Assembly: GCA_026129165.1 (NCBI GenBank)
Contig: JAHCIP010000009.1
Span: 1-45,457 of the forward strand
DNA: 45,457 nt
Direction of reading: 5' to 3'
Source: Anaerolineae bacterium
GTDB lineage: Bacteria > Chloroflexota > Anaerolineae > Epilineales > JAHCIE01
Shown: in pieces, positions 8,072 through 42,500 of the stretch
Position numbering within the stretch: position 1 is the first letter of the stretch
How the letters are laid out: the number at the start of each line of letters is the position of its first letter
Notes under the pieces: generated by a model
The model's input: the letters and a program-made list of their open reading frames with translations, nothing else
Databases searched by the model: none
What the model was told of the DNA's origin: nothing
Position numbers and translations under genes: made by a program

Positions 8072-9940
8072 GTGACGACGACAGCCAGTTTTCAAGACTA
8101 CCGCCGCCTGCTGACGACGTACCTGGCGCCACAGCGGGGCCGCCTCGTCCTGCTGGCGCTCCTGCTGTTTGGCGGGGCGGGGCTGCAACTCCTCAACCCG
8201 CAGGTGGTACGCGGCTTCATTGACGCGACCCAGGCGGGCCAGGGCGAGGCGGCCTCCCGCACGGGCCTGGTGTTTATCGGCGTGGCCCTGCTCCAGCAAG
8301 TCTTCCGTCTCGCCGGGGGCTACCTCGGTGAGACGGTGGGCTGGCAGGCCACCAACCGCCTGCGCGCCGACCTGACGCGCCACCTGCTCCGCCTGGACAT
8401 GGGCTTCCACAAGACGCACACGCCGGGCGAACTCATCGAACGGGTGGACGGCGACGTGACGACGCTGACCAACTTCTTCTCGACCATGATTCTCCACCTG
8501 CTGTGGAACGCCCTGGTCATCCTGGGCATCCTGGCCCTGCTCTTCCGCGAGGACTGGCGCATCGGCGTGGGGCTGGCCGTCTACGCCGCTGCCGTCCTGG
8601 TCGGCCTGGGGCTGCTGCAGGGGTGGGGCGCGAGCCGTTGGCAGGCCGCCCGCCAGGCGCGCGCCGAGATGTCGGCCTTTGTGGAGGAACGCTTCCAGGG
8701 CATGGAGGACATTCGGGGTAACGGTGGCGAGGGCTACGTCATGCACCGCCTCTACCCGCTGATGCGCGGCGTGCTGGAGCGCGAGTTACCGGCGCGGTTG
8801 ATCGGGACGGGCGCGGAGATGACGACGCGCTTCCTGTTCGTCCTCGGCTACGCGGTGGGGCTGGGCGTGGGCGCGACCCTGTACACTCAGGGCGCGGTTT
8901 CGTTGGGCGTGGCCTTCCTCATCACCCTGTACATCGGGATGCTGGCCGAGCCGCTGGAGAACATCCGCTACCAGGCGCAAGACCTCCAGCAGGTCGGCGG
9001 GAGCCTAGAGCGCGTCCTGGGCCTGCTGGCGCTGACGCCCTCCGTCCAGGAGCGAGCCACCGCCGTCCTGCCCGCCGGCGCGCTGGCCGTCGCCTTCGAG
9101 GATGTCACCTTCGAGTACGACGACGGGGTGGTCGTGACCGAGGACGGAGGACGGACGACGGACGACCGCTGCGCGAGGCAGAAGGTGGTAGGCAGCCGGC
9201 AGCAGGCGGACGAGATACCGACTACCGACTACCGACTACCGACTACGCACTACGCACTACGGACCATCGCCTTCGAGCTAGCGCCCGGCGAAACCCTTGG
9301 CTTGCTGGGGCGGACGGGCAGCGGCAAGACGACGCTCACGCGGCTGCTGTTCCGCCTCTACGACCCGACCGAGGGGACCATCCGGCTGGGCGGCCAGGAC
9401 ATCCGCGCTGTCGCCCTGGCCGACCTGCGCGGCCGGGTGGGCATGGTCACGCAGGACGTGCAGATCTTCCAGGCCAGCGTGCGCGACAACCTGACCCTGT
9501 TCAACCCACGCCTCACCGACGCCGAGGTGGGCGCGGCGCTGGACCAGTTGGGGCTGCGCGAGTGGGTGGCCCGCCTGCCACAGGAGCTGGACACGCGGCT
9601 GGGCGCGGGTGGGTTGGGGCTGTCGGCGGGGGAGGCGCAATTGCTCGCCTTCACGCGCGTCTTCCTCAAGGACCCCGGCCTGGTCATCCTGGACGAAGCC
9701 TCGTCCCGCCTGGACCCGCTGACCGAGCGCCTCCTCGAACGCGCCACCCAACGCCTGCTCGCCCAGCGCACGGGCCTGGTCATCGCCCACCGCTTGCAGA
9801 CGGTGCAACATGTGGACTGGATTCTGATTCTGGACGGCGGGCAGGTGGTGGAGTTTGGGCGGCGGGCCGAACTGGCCGGCGACAGAGGCTCGCGCTTCTC
9901 GCAGCTACTACAGACCAGCCTGGAGGAAGCCCTGGCATGA
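8072..9940 (+). CDS. ABC exporter half-transporter, subunit 1 (fused membrane and ATPase domains)
   Basis: 622 aa, GTG start immediately after the RIO kinase stop. Six membrane helices (about 20-300) precede the ATPase domain: Walker [10 protein letters not shown] near 414, Q-loop TQDVQIF, signature LSAGE near 515 (degenerate against LSGGQ), Walker [13 protein letters not shown] with the catalytic Glu near 542, and switch His in IAHRL near 572. Residues about 355-397 are an in-frame block encoded by 7-bp tandem repeats between the first strands of the ATPase domain; without it the protein is about 580 aa, normal for the family. Together with the next gene it should form an asymmetric heterodimer. 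The substrate is unknown; lipids, peptides or drugs are usual. Confidence 0.93.
9138..9263. repeat. 7-bp tandem arrays inserted in frame within an ABC ATPase domain
   Basis: First array CCGAGGA, CGGAGGA, CGGACGA, CGGACGA (9138-9165); a middle part with GGTAGGC, AGCCGGC, AGCAGGC; then CCGACTA four times and CGCACTA twice (9218-9259). The block is about 126 bp, which is 18 heptamers and 42 codons, so the frame is kept. The encoded text (EDGGRTTDD..., [15 protein letters not shown]) is low complexity and unlike the family. Confidence 0.85.
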
Positions 9941-11739
9941 CGACCTCTATCCCTACCGCAACCACCCCCGCCCAAATGCGGACCTGGCCCTTCGCGGGCC
10001 GGCTAATGCGCTACGCCTGGCTGCCCTTTACCGTCCACTCCGTGTTCCACCTGCTGTTCTACGGCCTGCGCGTCGTGCCCGGCCTGATTGAGAAGCGTGT
10101 GTTCGACCAGATTACGGGCGCGGCCCCGGCCACGCTCAGCCTGTGGACCCTGGTAGCCCTCTATATCTCGGTCGAGGTGGGGCGGCTCGCCACCTCCTTC
10201 GGCAGCGTGTGGGGCGGCTGGACGTTCCGCTATCTCACCGCCGCCCTGCTGCGCCGCAACGTGATGGCGAGCCTGCTGCGCCGGCCGGGCGCGGTCGCCC
10301 CGCCTGTCACTTCGGGCGAGGCGCTCAACCGCTTCACCCACGACGTGGGCGAGGTGACGGACTTCCCAACCTGGCTGCCCGATGTGGGCGGCAAGGCCGT
10401 CACGACGGTCATAGCACTGGGGATTATGGCCTCCATCCAGCCGACGCTGACCCTGGTGGTGTGCCTGCCGCTGCTGGTCACGCTCGTGGCCGGGCGGCTG
10501 GCCTGGGCGCGGTTCCTGCGCTATACCGCCGCCGAGCGCGAGGCGTCGAGCGCGGTGTCCAGCTTCCTGGGCGAGATTTTCGGCGCGGTCCAGGCGGTCA
10601 AGGTGGCCCACGCCGAGGGGGATGTGGTCGCCCACTTCGACCGCCTCAACGAGACTCGCCAGCGAGCCGAGGTGCGCCAGCACTTCTTCTGGAACTTCAT
10701 CCGTTCGTTCTCGGACAGCACCGTGGCGCTGGGCATCGGCCTGACCCTGCTCCTGGCCGGCCAGGCGATGGCGAGCGGGACGTTTACCGTCGGTGACTTC
10801 GCGCTGTTCGTGTACTACCTGTGGTTCGCGGCGGAACTGGCCCAGGACATGGGAACGTTCATCGGGGACTACAAGACGCAGGAGGTGTCCATCCGCCGCC
10901 TGACAGAGATGATCCAGCCGGAACCGTCGCCGGCCCTGGTTGACTATGCACCGGTCTACCAGACCGGCCCGCTGCCCACGCTGCACTACACGACCAAGAC
11001 GCCCGCCGACAGGCTGGACTACCTCGACGTGCGCGGGCTGACCTACCACTACCCCGGCTCAGACAAGGGCATCGCGGACATCCACCTGACGTTGCCACGC
11101 GGCGGCTTCGTCGTGGTCACCGGCCGCATCGGGTCGGGCAAGACAACGCTGTTGCGGACGCTGCTGGGTCTGCTGCCCAGAGAGGGCGGCGAGATACGCT
11201 GGAACGGGCAGGTCGTGGCCGCCCCGGCGACCTTCTTCCAGCCGCCCCGCGCCGCCTACACGCCCCAGGTGCCACGCCTGTTCAGCGAACTGTTGCGCGA
11301 CAATATCCTGATGGGCCTGCCATCCGACCGGGTAGACCTGGACGGGGCGGTGGAGCGGGCGGTGCTGGACCCGGACCTGAGCACGCTGGAGCGCGGGTTG
11401 GACACGCTGGTGGGGCCGCGCGGCGTGCGGCTGTCGGGCGGGCAAGTGCAGCGCGCCGCCGCCGCCCGTATGTGCGTGCGCGACCCCGAACTGCTGGTCT
11501 TTGACGACCTCTCCAGCGCCCTGGACGTGGAGACGGAGCGGCAGTTGTGGGAGGGACTAGGGGCCGTGACCTGCCTGGTGGTGTCGCATCGGCGGCCCGC
11601 GCTGCGCCGCGCCGACCACATCATCGTGCTGAAGGATGGGCGGGTCGAGGCGGAGGGGACGCTGGACGCCCTGCTGGCGACATCCGAGGAGATGCGGCGG
11701 CTATGGCGCGGCGAACTGGACGGAGGCGAGACTGAATGA
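9937..11739 (+). CDS. ABC exporter half-transporter, subunit 2 (fused membrane and ATPase domains)
   Basis: 600 aa from ATG 9937, which overlaps the preceding stop (ATGA); an open frame extends further upstream but only as a shadow of the previous gene. Membrane domain about residues 20-330, then Walker [10 protein letters not shown] near 396, canonical signature [14 protein letters not shown] near 497, Walker [13 protein letters not shown] near 521 in which Asp replaces the catalytic Glu, and switch His in VVSHRRP near 551. The degenerate Walker B here and the degenerate signature in subunit 1 are complementary: one good and one dead ATP site per dimer, as in heterodimeric exporters such as TM287/288. 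Confidence 0.93.
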
Positions 11740-32484: not shown

Positions 32485-33465
32485 TTACCTTCTCCCGTAG
32501 GGGTATGAACTCGATGGTTCAAGTAGAGCGGCCAGGAACTTGGTCCGTAACTCACTATCGAAGATGAGCACAATGCCCATCATCACCAGCCCCAGGAGCG
32601 CCTGCCAGATGACGGTCAACACGTTGACGCCCGTGGCGTCGGCGGCTGGCTCCGGCTCGGCCGAGCGTGTCGTGACCAGCAGCCGCAGCGGCTCATCGTT
32701 CGGCCCCAGCACAATCGTCGCATCATCGCCGAGGTTGAGCATCGCCAGTGTCGCGGCGACGTTATCCCGCCGTATATCGGTATCGTCGCCCGGACTGACC
32801 GTGAGTTCGCCCTGGTTCGGAACACGGATGACAAGACTGGTGTCGTCCTTCTGAACAATGCGCCCGCGAAACGTGCGTACACCGGCCAGGGGTACGGTTG
32901 CCGTCGGTACGACACGTGTTCCATCGGCGCCGGGTGTGGGAGTGGCGGTCGGTGGGGTAGGCGAGGCCGTGAGACCGGGCAAGGTGGCGACGCCAGGCGC
33001 GGTCGTCACTCCTGGCAAAGCCGGCGCTCCAGGCAAGCCGGTGCCCGCCGTAGCGAGGGCGGTCACAAGGGGGGCAGCGCCCCGCGTCCCGACCACTGGC
33101 GGTATAGTAGGGGGCAAACCCCCCGGCCGTTGCGTCTGAACCGGCAGCGGTGTCTGAAACAGCGGCGTTATCTGGACCGGCGCCACTGTCTGTACAGGCG
33201 GCACGATCTGGACCGGGGATAATGTCCGGATGGGAATCGGCGTCTGGGTGGGCGTCGGTAGACCTATTCTAGCGGTAGGCGTCAGCGTTGCCGTGTCCAG
33301 CGGCCCGGTCTGATAGCGTAGGGCGATCAGGCCGGGGTTGGCTAATGGCTCAGCCCGTAGGGGAAGGGCTTCTCCCCCCGAAGGTCCGCTCCAGTCGGCC
33401 CAGACCAGGCTCAGCGCCGCCAACACCACCAGCAGCGCCACCCGCCGCCTCATCGGCCCCTCCAC
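32485..33465 (-). CDS. Secreted or membrane protein with Thr/Pro linker and C-terminal helix
   Basis: 326 aa. N-terminal signal helix (RRRVALLVVLAALSLVWA, about 6-23), then a long Thr/Pro/Val linker (about 55-195) with short repeats of the type PVQ(I/T)xP, then a small beta-domain (FRGRIVQKDDTSLVIRVPNQGELTVSPGDDTDIRRD, about 200-235) like DUF5666/OB domains, and a C-terminal membrane helix (VIWQALLGLVMMGIVLIF, about 285-302). No enzyme motif. The Thr/Pro linker resembles cell-surface spacers. It leads a short transcript with the 94-aa gene. Confidence 0.72.
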   Translation of the reverse strand: MEGPMRRRVALLVVLAALSLVWADWSGPSGGEALPLRAEPLANPGLIALRYQTGPLDTATLTPTARIGLPTPTQTPIPIRTLSPVQIVPPVQTVAPVQITPLFQTPLPVQTQRPGGLPPTIPPVVGTRGAAPLVTALATAGTGLPGAPALPGVTTAPGVATLPGLTASPTPPTATPTPGADGTRVVPTATVPLAGVRTFRGRIVQKDDTSLVIRVPNQGELTVSPGDDTDIRRDNVAATLAMLNLGDDATIVLGPNDEPLRLLVTTRSAEPEPAADATGVNVLTVIWQALLGLVMMGIVLIFDSELRTKFLAALLEPSSSYPYGRR

Positions 33466-38473: not shown

Positions 38474-38509
38474 CTTCTTCCCTTATTCCTTATTTCCTAT
38501 TCCCTCTCC
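38474..38509. repeat. 7-bp tandem array at a gene junction
   Basis: Plus-strand heptamers CTTCTTC(C), CTTATTC, CTTATTT, CCTATTC, CCTCTCC. On the minus strand this purine-rich array encodes the tail GEGIGNKE and stop of the coiled-coil gene and provides AAGGAGG for the next gene. Confidence 0.75.
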
Positions 38510-39581: not shown

Positions 39582-42500
39582 TAGCTTAGATCTCCTTGCC
39601 CTGACCAGAACTTGTCGACAGCCGCGCGCAGGCCGCGATGCTCTGGGGCCGAGATGTCGGGGTCCTGCTCGAAGAGGCTTTCGGCTGCCCCACGCGCCTG
39701 TTCCAGGGTCTGCACATCACTCAGCTTGGCGACCGCCAGGTCCGGCAGGCCGCTCTGCCGGGTACCGAAGAACTCGCCCGGCCCGCGCAGCTTTAAGTCC
39801 TCCTCAGCCAACTCGAAGCCGTCCTGGGTCCGTTCCATCGCCTCCAACCGGGTCTTGCCGTCCTCACCGATGTTCTCGTCGGCGACGAGCAGGCAGTACG
39901 ACTGATACTGACCGCGGCCGACGCGGCCTCGGAACTGGTGGAGCTGGGCTAGGCCAAAGCGGTTCGCGCCCTCGATGAGCATCACCGTTGTGTTAGGCAC
40001 GTCAATGCCGACCTCGACCACCGAGGTGGACACCAGGATGTGCAAATCCCCTCGGTAGAACTCAGCCATCACGGCTTCCTTCTCGGCCGGGCGGAGCTTG
40101 CCGTGCAGCAGACCCAGGCGAAGGTGCGGGAAGACCTCCTGTTGCAGTCGTTCATACTCCTGGACCGCCGCCTTGACCTCCAGGTTCTCCGACTCCTCGA
40201 TGAGGGGGCAGATAATAAACGCCTGGCGGCCCTGCTGGATCTGACCTGCCACAAACGAGTAGGCGCGCTCGCGCTCGCGCGGCAGCACCCACTTGGTCTT
40301 GATGGGCGTGCGGCCCGGCGGCAACTCGTTGATGATGGACAGGTCCAGGTCACCGTAGACGGTCAGGGCCAGCGTGCGCGGGATAGGCGTGGCCGTCATG
40401 ACCAGCAGGTGCGGGACGGTCCCTGTGCCCTTCTGGCGCAGGGCCGCCCGCTGGCCGACGCCGAAGCGGTGCTGTTCGTCCACAATGGCGAGACCCAGGT
40501 TGGCGAACTCGACGCCCGACTGGATGACGGCGTGCGTGCCGACGACAAAGGGCGACTCCCCCGACGCGACGGCCTGGTAGGCGGCCTCGCGCTCGGCTTT
40601 GGTCAGGCTGCCGGTCAACAACTCGACGGGCGGCGCGGACTGGCCCGTCGTCTCGGCCCAGGTTCTGAACAGGCGGCGCAGGCCCTTGGCATGCTGCTCG
40701 GCCAGGATTTCGGTAGGAGCCATGAGCGCCGCTTGCATCCCGTTGGCCCAGGCCGCCACCATCGCCGCCGCCGCCACGACCGTCTTGCCCGACCCCACGT
40801 CTCCCTGGAGCAGGCGGCTCATGGGGCGAGTGGAGTTCATGTCCTTGCGGATTTCGTCCAGCACGCGCTGCTGTGCCCCCGTCAAGCTGAAGGGCAAGGA
40901 CTGAAGAAAGCTCTGGTAGACGTCTTCAGACAGCGGCAGCGCCCGACCCTCGTTGGACTGCCAGAGCCGACGTTGGCGCAGCACCCCCAACTGGATGACA
41001 AAGAACTCGTCAAATGCCAGGCGGTGGCGGGACTGGGCCAGCCTGACCTGGTCGTCGGGGAAGTGGACCTGGCGTACTGCGTCAGCCAGCGGCATGAGCG
41101 CCTGAGCTTCACGGATACCGTCGGGGAGAGGGTCGGTTAAACGGGACGAGTAGGCGTCCACGACGCGCTTGAGGGTGGTACGCATCCAGCGCGGGCCGAT
41201 GCCCTGCGTGAGCGGATAGACCGGGACGAGGCGGGCCGTATGCACGAGGTCCTGGTCCAGCGGCTCCCACTCTGGCGACTGCAAGACGAGCTTGCCCAGG
41301 TAGGCGTCAATGCGCCCGCTGAGGACGATCTGGCGGCCGGGGCGCAGTTGCTGAAGCAGGTAGGGCTGGTTGAACCACGTCGCCTGGATGTACCCTGTCG
41401 CGTCCGACAGGACGCATGTGGTGATCATCATGCCCTTCGGCGAGCGGCGGTTGGTCGTGTTCTGCACCGTCCCTACGACGGTCGCTTCCTCGCCGTACAC
41501 CAGTTGGTGAATCGTCTTCAGTTGGCTGAAGTCGTCATAACGGCGCGGAATCAGGAAAAGCAGGTCGCGGATGGTCTGAACCCCCAGGCGGGCCAGGTGC
41601 TTAGCGTAGACCGTACTGATGCCTGGAATCTGCGTCACCGGCCCATCGAGATCGCCCGTGGGGGCAATCGTAGCCTGGGGGCCGCGCCGGATCGTCGGCG
41701 CACGGGGCAAGGGGGGCGGGTCGGCGACCGCGACCGGGGCCGCGGCCAGGGAGGGGATGCCCTCCAAAGCCTCACTGGAACCGCCTTCGCGGCGGCTCTT
41801 CGCCGTGAGCATGGGCGCGGCTTCCGATTCGGGGCCAACCGGGCGGTTGGCGGTCGAGATAGGCAGGGGGGGGATGGAGAGACGTCCGGGCGGGCGCTCG
41901 CTGGCCTCCGTCGGCTCCCCCCCTCTGGAAGCAGACGGAGGGGCCGTGGGCTTACGAGGGGCCGGCGTTGAACCACTCGGACGTGGCGGGCTGGGGCGGT
42001 CCTTGTCCTGGGCTGGCCCGGCCTTACCCCCTCGATCCTCTGGCCGGGCTGTCTTGGGCGCGTTCTCGGCGGTGCGCGGGAATGGGGTGTTTGGCTGGCG
42101 AGCCTCGTCGCGGCCTCCGCGCTTCTCGCCAGGTTTCTCCTCGGCTGGCCCTGGCTTCGGGCCACGGCCCTGCTCATTGTCGGCGCCGCGCTGAGGCGTG
42201 GGGCGGAGCGCGGTCTTGGGTAGGGGACGCCCTGAGTGCATCGCGTCGTCGTCGTCGTTGTCGTCGTCCGGTTCCGTTTCGGGGCGGCGCTTGCCCCGCG
42301 CTGCGTCAGGAACTTCGCGGTTGGCAGGGGAAATTGACCGGGCTGGCGGACGCCCGGCCGCATTCTTGCGTTCCGCCTCGGACGGGGAGGCGGTCTGGGG
42401 GGCGCTCTCCTCGCGCCGCCTCTTGGCGCTCGTGGAGCCGCCCTCTGTCTGGAGCAGCGCCTTGATGGCGGCGGCGCGCTCCTCGGGCGAGCGTGAGCCG

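Follow-up and report, generated by a model that had tools for sequence, protein, structure and literature searches.

An ABC exporter subunit encoded in the window (the whole stretch of 45,457 nucleotides that was analyzed) carries a run of tandem heptamers in the turn between strands beta1 and beta2 of its ATPase domain, and we consider it highly likely that this insert is a lineage-private, dispersed heptamer array kept as an in-frame, stop-free and tolerated segment. A single insert of this kind is ordinary, and the pattern across genes and genomes is of greater interest. Both the genome-wide repeat family and the occurrence of other genomes' own repeats in the same loop extend beyond the original prediction, which had been made from the window alone.

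An in-frame heptamer array in an ABC exporter subunit

The array-bearing subunit has both the transmembrane and the ATPase domain matches of an ABC exporter (Table 1), and its Walker A, signature, Walker B and His switch are all intact, in agreement with what had been predicted for Walker A, Walker B and the His motif. By structure comparison, its closest solved folds are TmrAB and TM287/288. These heterodimeric bacterial exporters share with the present system a common fold, the domain order, and two adjacent subunit genes, but the subunit described here differs in having a 40-residue insert in a turn of its ATPase domain. Because the two genes overlap by ATGA and the Walker B of the second subunit ends in DD rather than DE, the two adjacent subunits probably form a heterodimer.

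The original prediction placed an in-frame repeat array of 126 bp upstream of Walker A, at 9138-9263. The array is indeed real and in frame, although its extent is corrected here to 125 bp at 9140-9264. Moreover, the proposal of exactly 18 heptamers does not hold, as we find 17 heptamers plus six bases, one base short. The array is ordered as 10 units, the 6-mer, and then 7 units, and is open in the frame of the gene. Its lag-7 self-match of 0.72 was attained by 0 of 20,000 shuffles, and the highest value for stretches of equal length elsewhere in the window was 0.51. The first 10 units read GAGGACG, GAGGACG, GACGACG, GACGACC, GCTGCGC, GAGGCAG, AAGGTGG, TAGGCAG, CCGGCAG, and CAGGCGG, and the unit types of the left block are also present in other in-frame arrays of the genome. 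TRF called the two ends of the array as separate period-7 arrays. Note that the edge of the insert is blurred, because the final array codons (9257-9262, Leu-Arg) also code for the first residues of beta2, among them L396, which is almost invariant.

Table 1. Features of the exporter genes and of the heptamer array (window positions).
Feature	Position	Strand	Basis or detail
ABC exporter subunit, 622 aa; transmembrane domain plus ATPase domain, in-frame array inside	8072-9940	+	ORF; PF00664 9.9e-30, PF00005 3.7e-28
beta1 of ATPase domain, residues 340-347	9089-9112	+	AlphaFold/DSSP
Residues 353-391, sole segment with pLDDT < 50	9128-9244	+	AlphaFold
Whole period-7 array, 125 bp; 17 heptamers and one 6-mer, in frame	9140-9264	+	lag-7 match 0.72
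Left block; four GAGGACG/GACGACG-type units, peptide EDGGRTTDD	9140-9167	+	
Middle block; six degenerate GGCAG-type units	9168-9209	+	
Six-base interruption ACGAGA	9210-9215	+	
Right block; TACCGAC x4, TACGCAC x2, TACGGAC, 15-residue peptide	9216-9264	+	
beta2, residues 396-403, first two codons from array end	9257-9280	+	AlphaFold/DSSP, sequence
Walker A	9308-9334	+	sequence/alignment
ABC signature LSAGEAQ	9620-9640	+	
Walker B LVILDE	9680-9697	+	
His switch H573	9788-9790	+	
Second ABC exporter subunit, likely heterodimer partner	9937-11739	+	ATG overlaps first gene's stop (ATGA)

The insert forms a predicted disordered loop that homologues do not share

In an AlphaFold model built with 36 sequences (mean pLDDT 87.9), the insert appears as a disordered excursion between the intact strands beta1 and beta2. 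An alignment of ~95 homologues, suggested earlier as a check on the insert, was also prepared. Most of these proteins have a span of 34 to 36 residues where the array-bearing protein has 74, and relative to the commonest loop among the homologues it is 40 residues longer (74 versus 34), so the earlier figure of about 42 inserted residues was approximately right. Longer loops do occur in the alignment, with sequences unrelated to that of the array-bearing loop, and none of the ~95 aligned proteins, near or distant, has the same loop. The insert is therefore not a normal conserved domain, an outcome for which the same loop would be expected in distant taxa. A broken gene is likewise ruled out by the intact frame and motifs.

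These observations bear out the suggestion that the insert forms a tolerated surface loop: disorder is predicted between intact strands, the motifs are preserved, and no homologue has the same loop. Because the motifs are intact, codon scores are good on both flanks, and the partner gene is coupled through ATGA, we infer that the protein tolerates the insert. The protein is presumably made and working, and the expected product would be a functional exporter with a ~40-residue disordered surface loop.

In a phylogenetic tree, the array-bearing protein clusters with a sister clade made up of the Oscillochloris protein L138 (+10 residues), L034 from genome G052 (no insert), and L035 from genome G041, whose loop is a heptamer array of a different unit. 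Judging from such named near homologues, the source organism probably belongs to Chloroflexota. Since two nearer homologues (L032 and L033) have long non-repeat loops, the array may have replaced an already long loop rather than splitting a short one.

A paralogous exporter with a related loop sequence

A paralogous exporter on contig C14 of the source genome (L061, 6674-8488, minus strand) is 51% identical to the array-bearing subunit and groups in the tree with an insert-free protein from genome G002. It has a GGCAG-type loop, 28 residues above the usual length, in which a 24-mer equals window positions 9187-9210 with one mismatch; no equally good match exists elsewhere in the genome. An exact core of 17 bases is common to the two loops, and the difference in its reading frame between the genes speaks against a conserved peptide. 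Both genes also share exact runs of 21 and 32 bases in their conserved parts. The common 24-mer may reflect shared descent, gene conversion, or two insertions of one element.

The array belongs to a dispersed heptamer family of the source genome

The 21-mer TACCGAC x3, allowing up to 2 mismatches, has 188 matches in the source genome (a draft assembly of 598 contigs) versus 2 for a reversed control, and just 4 of the 199 class genomes have an exact copy. We detected 111 period-7 arrays in a 955-kb sample of the source genome versus 4 in a Markov control, a density that is overestimated, as contigs with matches were favored in part of the sampling. The lags tested are dominated by 7 and its double, 14.

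Judged by the codon usage of their two flanks, 20 of the 101 non-edge arrays lie in frame within genes, with the caveats that the threshold set for the codon-usage score was modest and that array-bearing contigs are overrepresented in the sample. The in-frame arrays fall within the Pfam domains of QueA, hydantoinase B, a metal-transporting P-type ATPase, and NB-ARC/AAA proteins. Relative to solved homologues, QueA has ~16 to 20 extra residues at its array and hydantoinase B has 11. On one contig (L086), two hydantoinase B paralogues have in-frame arrays that are almost identically placed (2921-2964 and 9850-9898).

Many of the arrays that are not in frame are located between genes, and 8 of 10 arrays between same-strand genes begin no more than 6 bases from the upstream stop codon. 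These ten same-strand cases had appeared to be 'broken' genes but proved to be mostly arrays adjoining a stop codon between genes. Intergenic arrays often start immediately at the upstream gene's stop codon, as on L068, L076, L078, L090, L111, L115, and others. No target-site duplication and no mobilizing enzyme were identified for the arrays. We considered a RAYT/IS200-type transposase or a reverse transcriptase as the mover. The genome has two Y1_Tnp genes and a few RT matches, but the ~1.5 kb around these genes and matches contained no heptamer arrays, which leaves the idea unsupported.

The window itself holds further short period-7 stretches at 796-826 and 38478-38509, of the CACGCATCACACATCACG and TTCCTTATTTCCTATTCCC types, respectively. 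In addition, TRF reported 18-base tandem repeats at 33134-33216, in two overlapping rows with units GTCTGAACCGGCAGCGGT and ATCTGGACCGGCGCCACG, and a (CGT)8 trinucleotide run at 42244-42268.

Stop codons set the orientation of arrays within genes

TACCGAC has no stop codon in any phase, and its complement GTCGGTA contains TAG. In-frame arrays contain 115 TACCGAC-type words in the sense orientation and 0 in the antisense orientation (6 versus 0 arrays); for the remaining arrays, the counts are 294 sense and 485 antisense words (15 and 21 arrays). As 7 is not divisible by 3, all phases of a tandem heptamer are read, and with TAG in the complement only one orientation occurs in genes. The orientation bias within genes is thus a stop-codon filter, as was pointed out earlier for the TAACTGA repeats of Beggiatoaceae (PMC4679880).

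Approximately 30% of the arrays outside the in-frame set fold strongly (z < -3), in line with inverted arms, and 0 of the 20 in-frame arrays do so. For the exporter insert, no strong hairpin was found in the coding copy, with z values of -0.12 as DNA and -1.97 as RNA.

Other genomes place their own repeats in the same loop

The G041 homologue, from another family, has in its loop an in-frame (CGAATGA)n array with a right arm of CGTCACT type. CGAATGA x3 has 174 matches in G041 versus 0 for the reversed control, and 2 versus 2 in the source genome; exact TACCGAC x3 is missing from the G041 genome. Among ~105 homologue loci, this is the sole clear intragenic heptamer array within a homologue, and it occupies the same loop. 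In genome G044, a more distant homologue has in this loop a REP-like sequence that is present in 44 copies in G044 versus 0 for the control. Therefore, three genomes have each put their own repeat in one turn. In the G044 homologue (L045, contig C116), CACAGAGGA-type arms around the REP-like TCATTTCGAGCGGAGCGAGAAATC core lie in frame upstream of Walker A of an ABC exporter.

We also asked if this loop is a preferred target within the source genome. Of the 58 ATPase domains read in it, only 2 have such a long loop, which is roughly the rate expected from in-frame arrays, and a claim of preference is therefore unsupported.

The position of the insert invites comparison with the regulatory insertion of CFTR NBD1 (formerly the S1-S2 loop), a disordered segment of ~30 residues in the beta1-beta2 turn that affects gating and folding (PMC7350234). 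By analogy, the exporter loop could be an exapted element that controls dimerization or the ATPase rate, or that binds a partner, and long loops are present in several of the closest homologues as well. We regard this as improbable. The likeness to CFTR is one of position, between the same two strands, whereas the exporter insert is repeat DNA that differs between genomes. The loop sequences of homologues are unrelated, three genomes use their own repeats, and the stretch common to the C14 paralogue is read in different frames.

It is distinctly improbable that the array acts as a phase-variation switch, in which adding or removing a single heptamer would change the reading frame and toggle the exporter pair on and off. 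Consistent with a switch, TRF detects four consecutive perfect TACCGAC units, one unit more or fewer would throw the gene out of frame, and translation of the partner gene is coupled to that of the first. However, four units make a short perfect tract, the majority of the units are degenerate, similar arrays occur in housekeeping genes such as queA and mostly outside genes, and the sister-clade homologue has a different unit. An assembly artefact, in which repeat-bearing reads from elsewhere were joined into the exporter gene, is scarcely credible despite the draft assembly and the high copy number of the repeat, given that the frame is kept and codon scores are good across both edges of the join, the array measures just 125 bp, and like insertions occur in other genes of the source genome and independently in G041.

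Returning to the dispersed array as the source of the insert, a copy would have landed in, or grown inside, the beta1-beta2 turn of the exporter, and would have been retained because it was in frame, in the stop-free orientation, and in a turn accepting extra residues. More generally, lineage-private heptamer arrays would spread through the genome under a filter that passes stop-free, in-frame landings in surface loops. The insert probably has little function of its own, and it looks less like a new functional part than like a by-product of repeat spread that is tolerated.

Relation to known repeat families

Dispersed heptamers have been described as cyanobacterial STRR, as TAACTGA in Beggiatoaceae, as GGGAATC in Xanthomonas, and as (GATAGRA)n in Chloroflexus aurantiacus (PMC4679880, PMC4692102, PMC6749651). 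The source-genome arrays similarly have a seven-base unit in tandem, at many sites beyond chance, and lie mostly between genes; like STRR-type arrays, they occupy tens to hundreds of dispersed sites and have a lineage-specific unit, and stop codons limit their orientation in genes. In contrast, the arrays described here are mosaics of several unit types each, and their units differ in sequence, TACCGAC being distinct from TAACTGA, GGGAATC, and GATAGRA as published. Several of them also lie within conserved enzyme domains, whereas the Beggiatoaceae copies in ORFs are mostly at protein ends (PMC4679880).

Rickettsia palindromic elements (RPE) are dispersed sequences of ~100 to 150 bp that occur in frame in unrelated genes, whose products tolerate the additional peptide (PMC10969869). 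The source-genome arrays likewise lie in frame in many protein genes that are unrelated to one another, a likeness by description. RPE, however, are palindromic families with a conserved peptide, whereas the copies within genes here consist of tandem heptamers, and neither the exporter insert nor any of the 20 in-frame arrays is an RPE-type palindrome with a strong hairpin. Thus, in outcome the insertions resemble RPE, and in kind they resemble the cyanobacterial and Beggiatoaceae heptamer repeats. The combination of private heptamers running through enzyme cores with different private repeats in one ABC loop is not described in the open-licence literature searched.

Judging from the sequences, dispersed short repeats that are usually seen as intergenic clutter appear to be regularly translated within conserved enzymes in this genome, and the data suggest that different genomes fill one protein loop with their own repeats. 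This would constitute a natural insertion experiment that marks the loops of common proteins that accept arbitrary peptides, and a possible route from non-coding repeat to protein sequence. It also calls for caution, in that loops found in a single genome should not be taken as functional domains. More speculatively, and with rather low expectation, each lineage in the class might maintain a private heptamer element that is still active. Its stop-free variants would spread in coding sequence and give rise to new surface loops, so that tandem heptamers would generate protein variation in the manner of RPE, and the ABC beta1-beta2 turn would be hit repeatedly.

Heptamer arrays with other units were also observed on contigs bearing ABC homologues from Gemmatimonadota, Acidobacteriota, and Kaiserbacteria (L161 847-924, with inverted arms; L159 4665-4760; L179 1802-1846; L189 3185-3235), and this kind of array is therefore widespread. 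Finally, the reversed control CAGCCAT x3 is itself repeated in several genomes of the class (G150, with 23 matches, G069, G044, G052, G186, and others), indicating that other private heptamer families exist.
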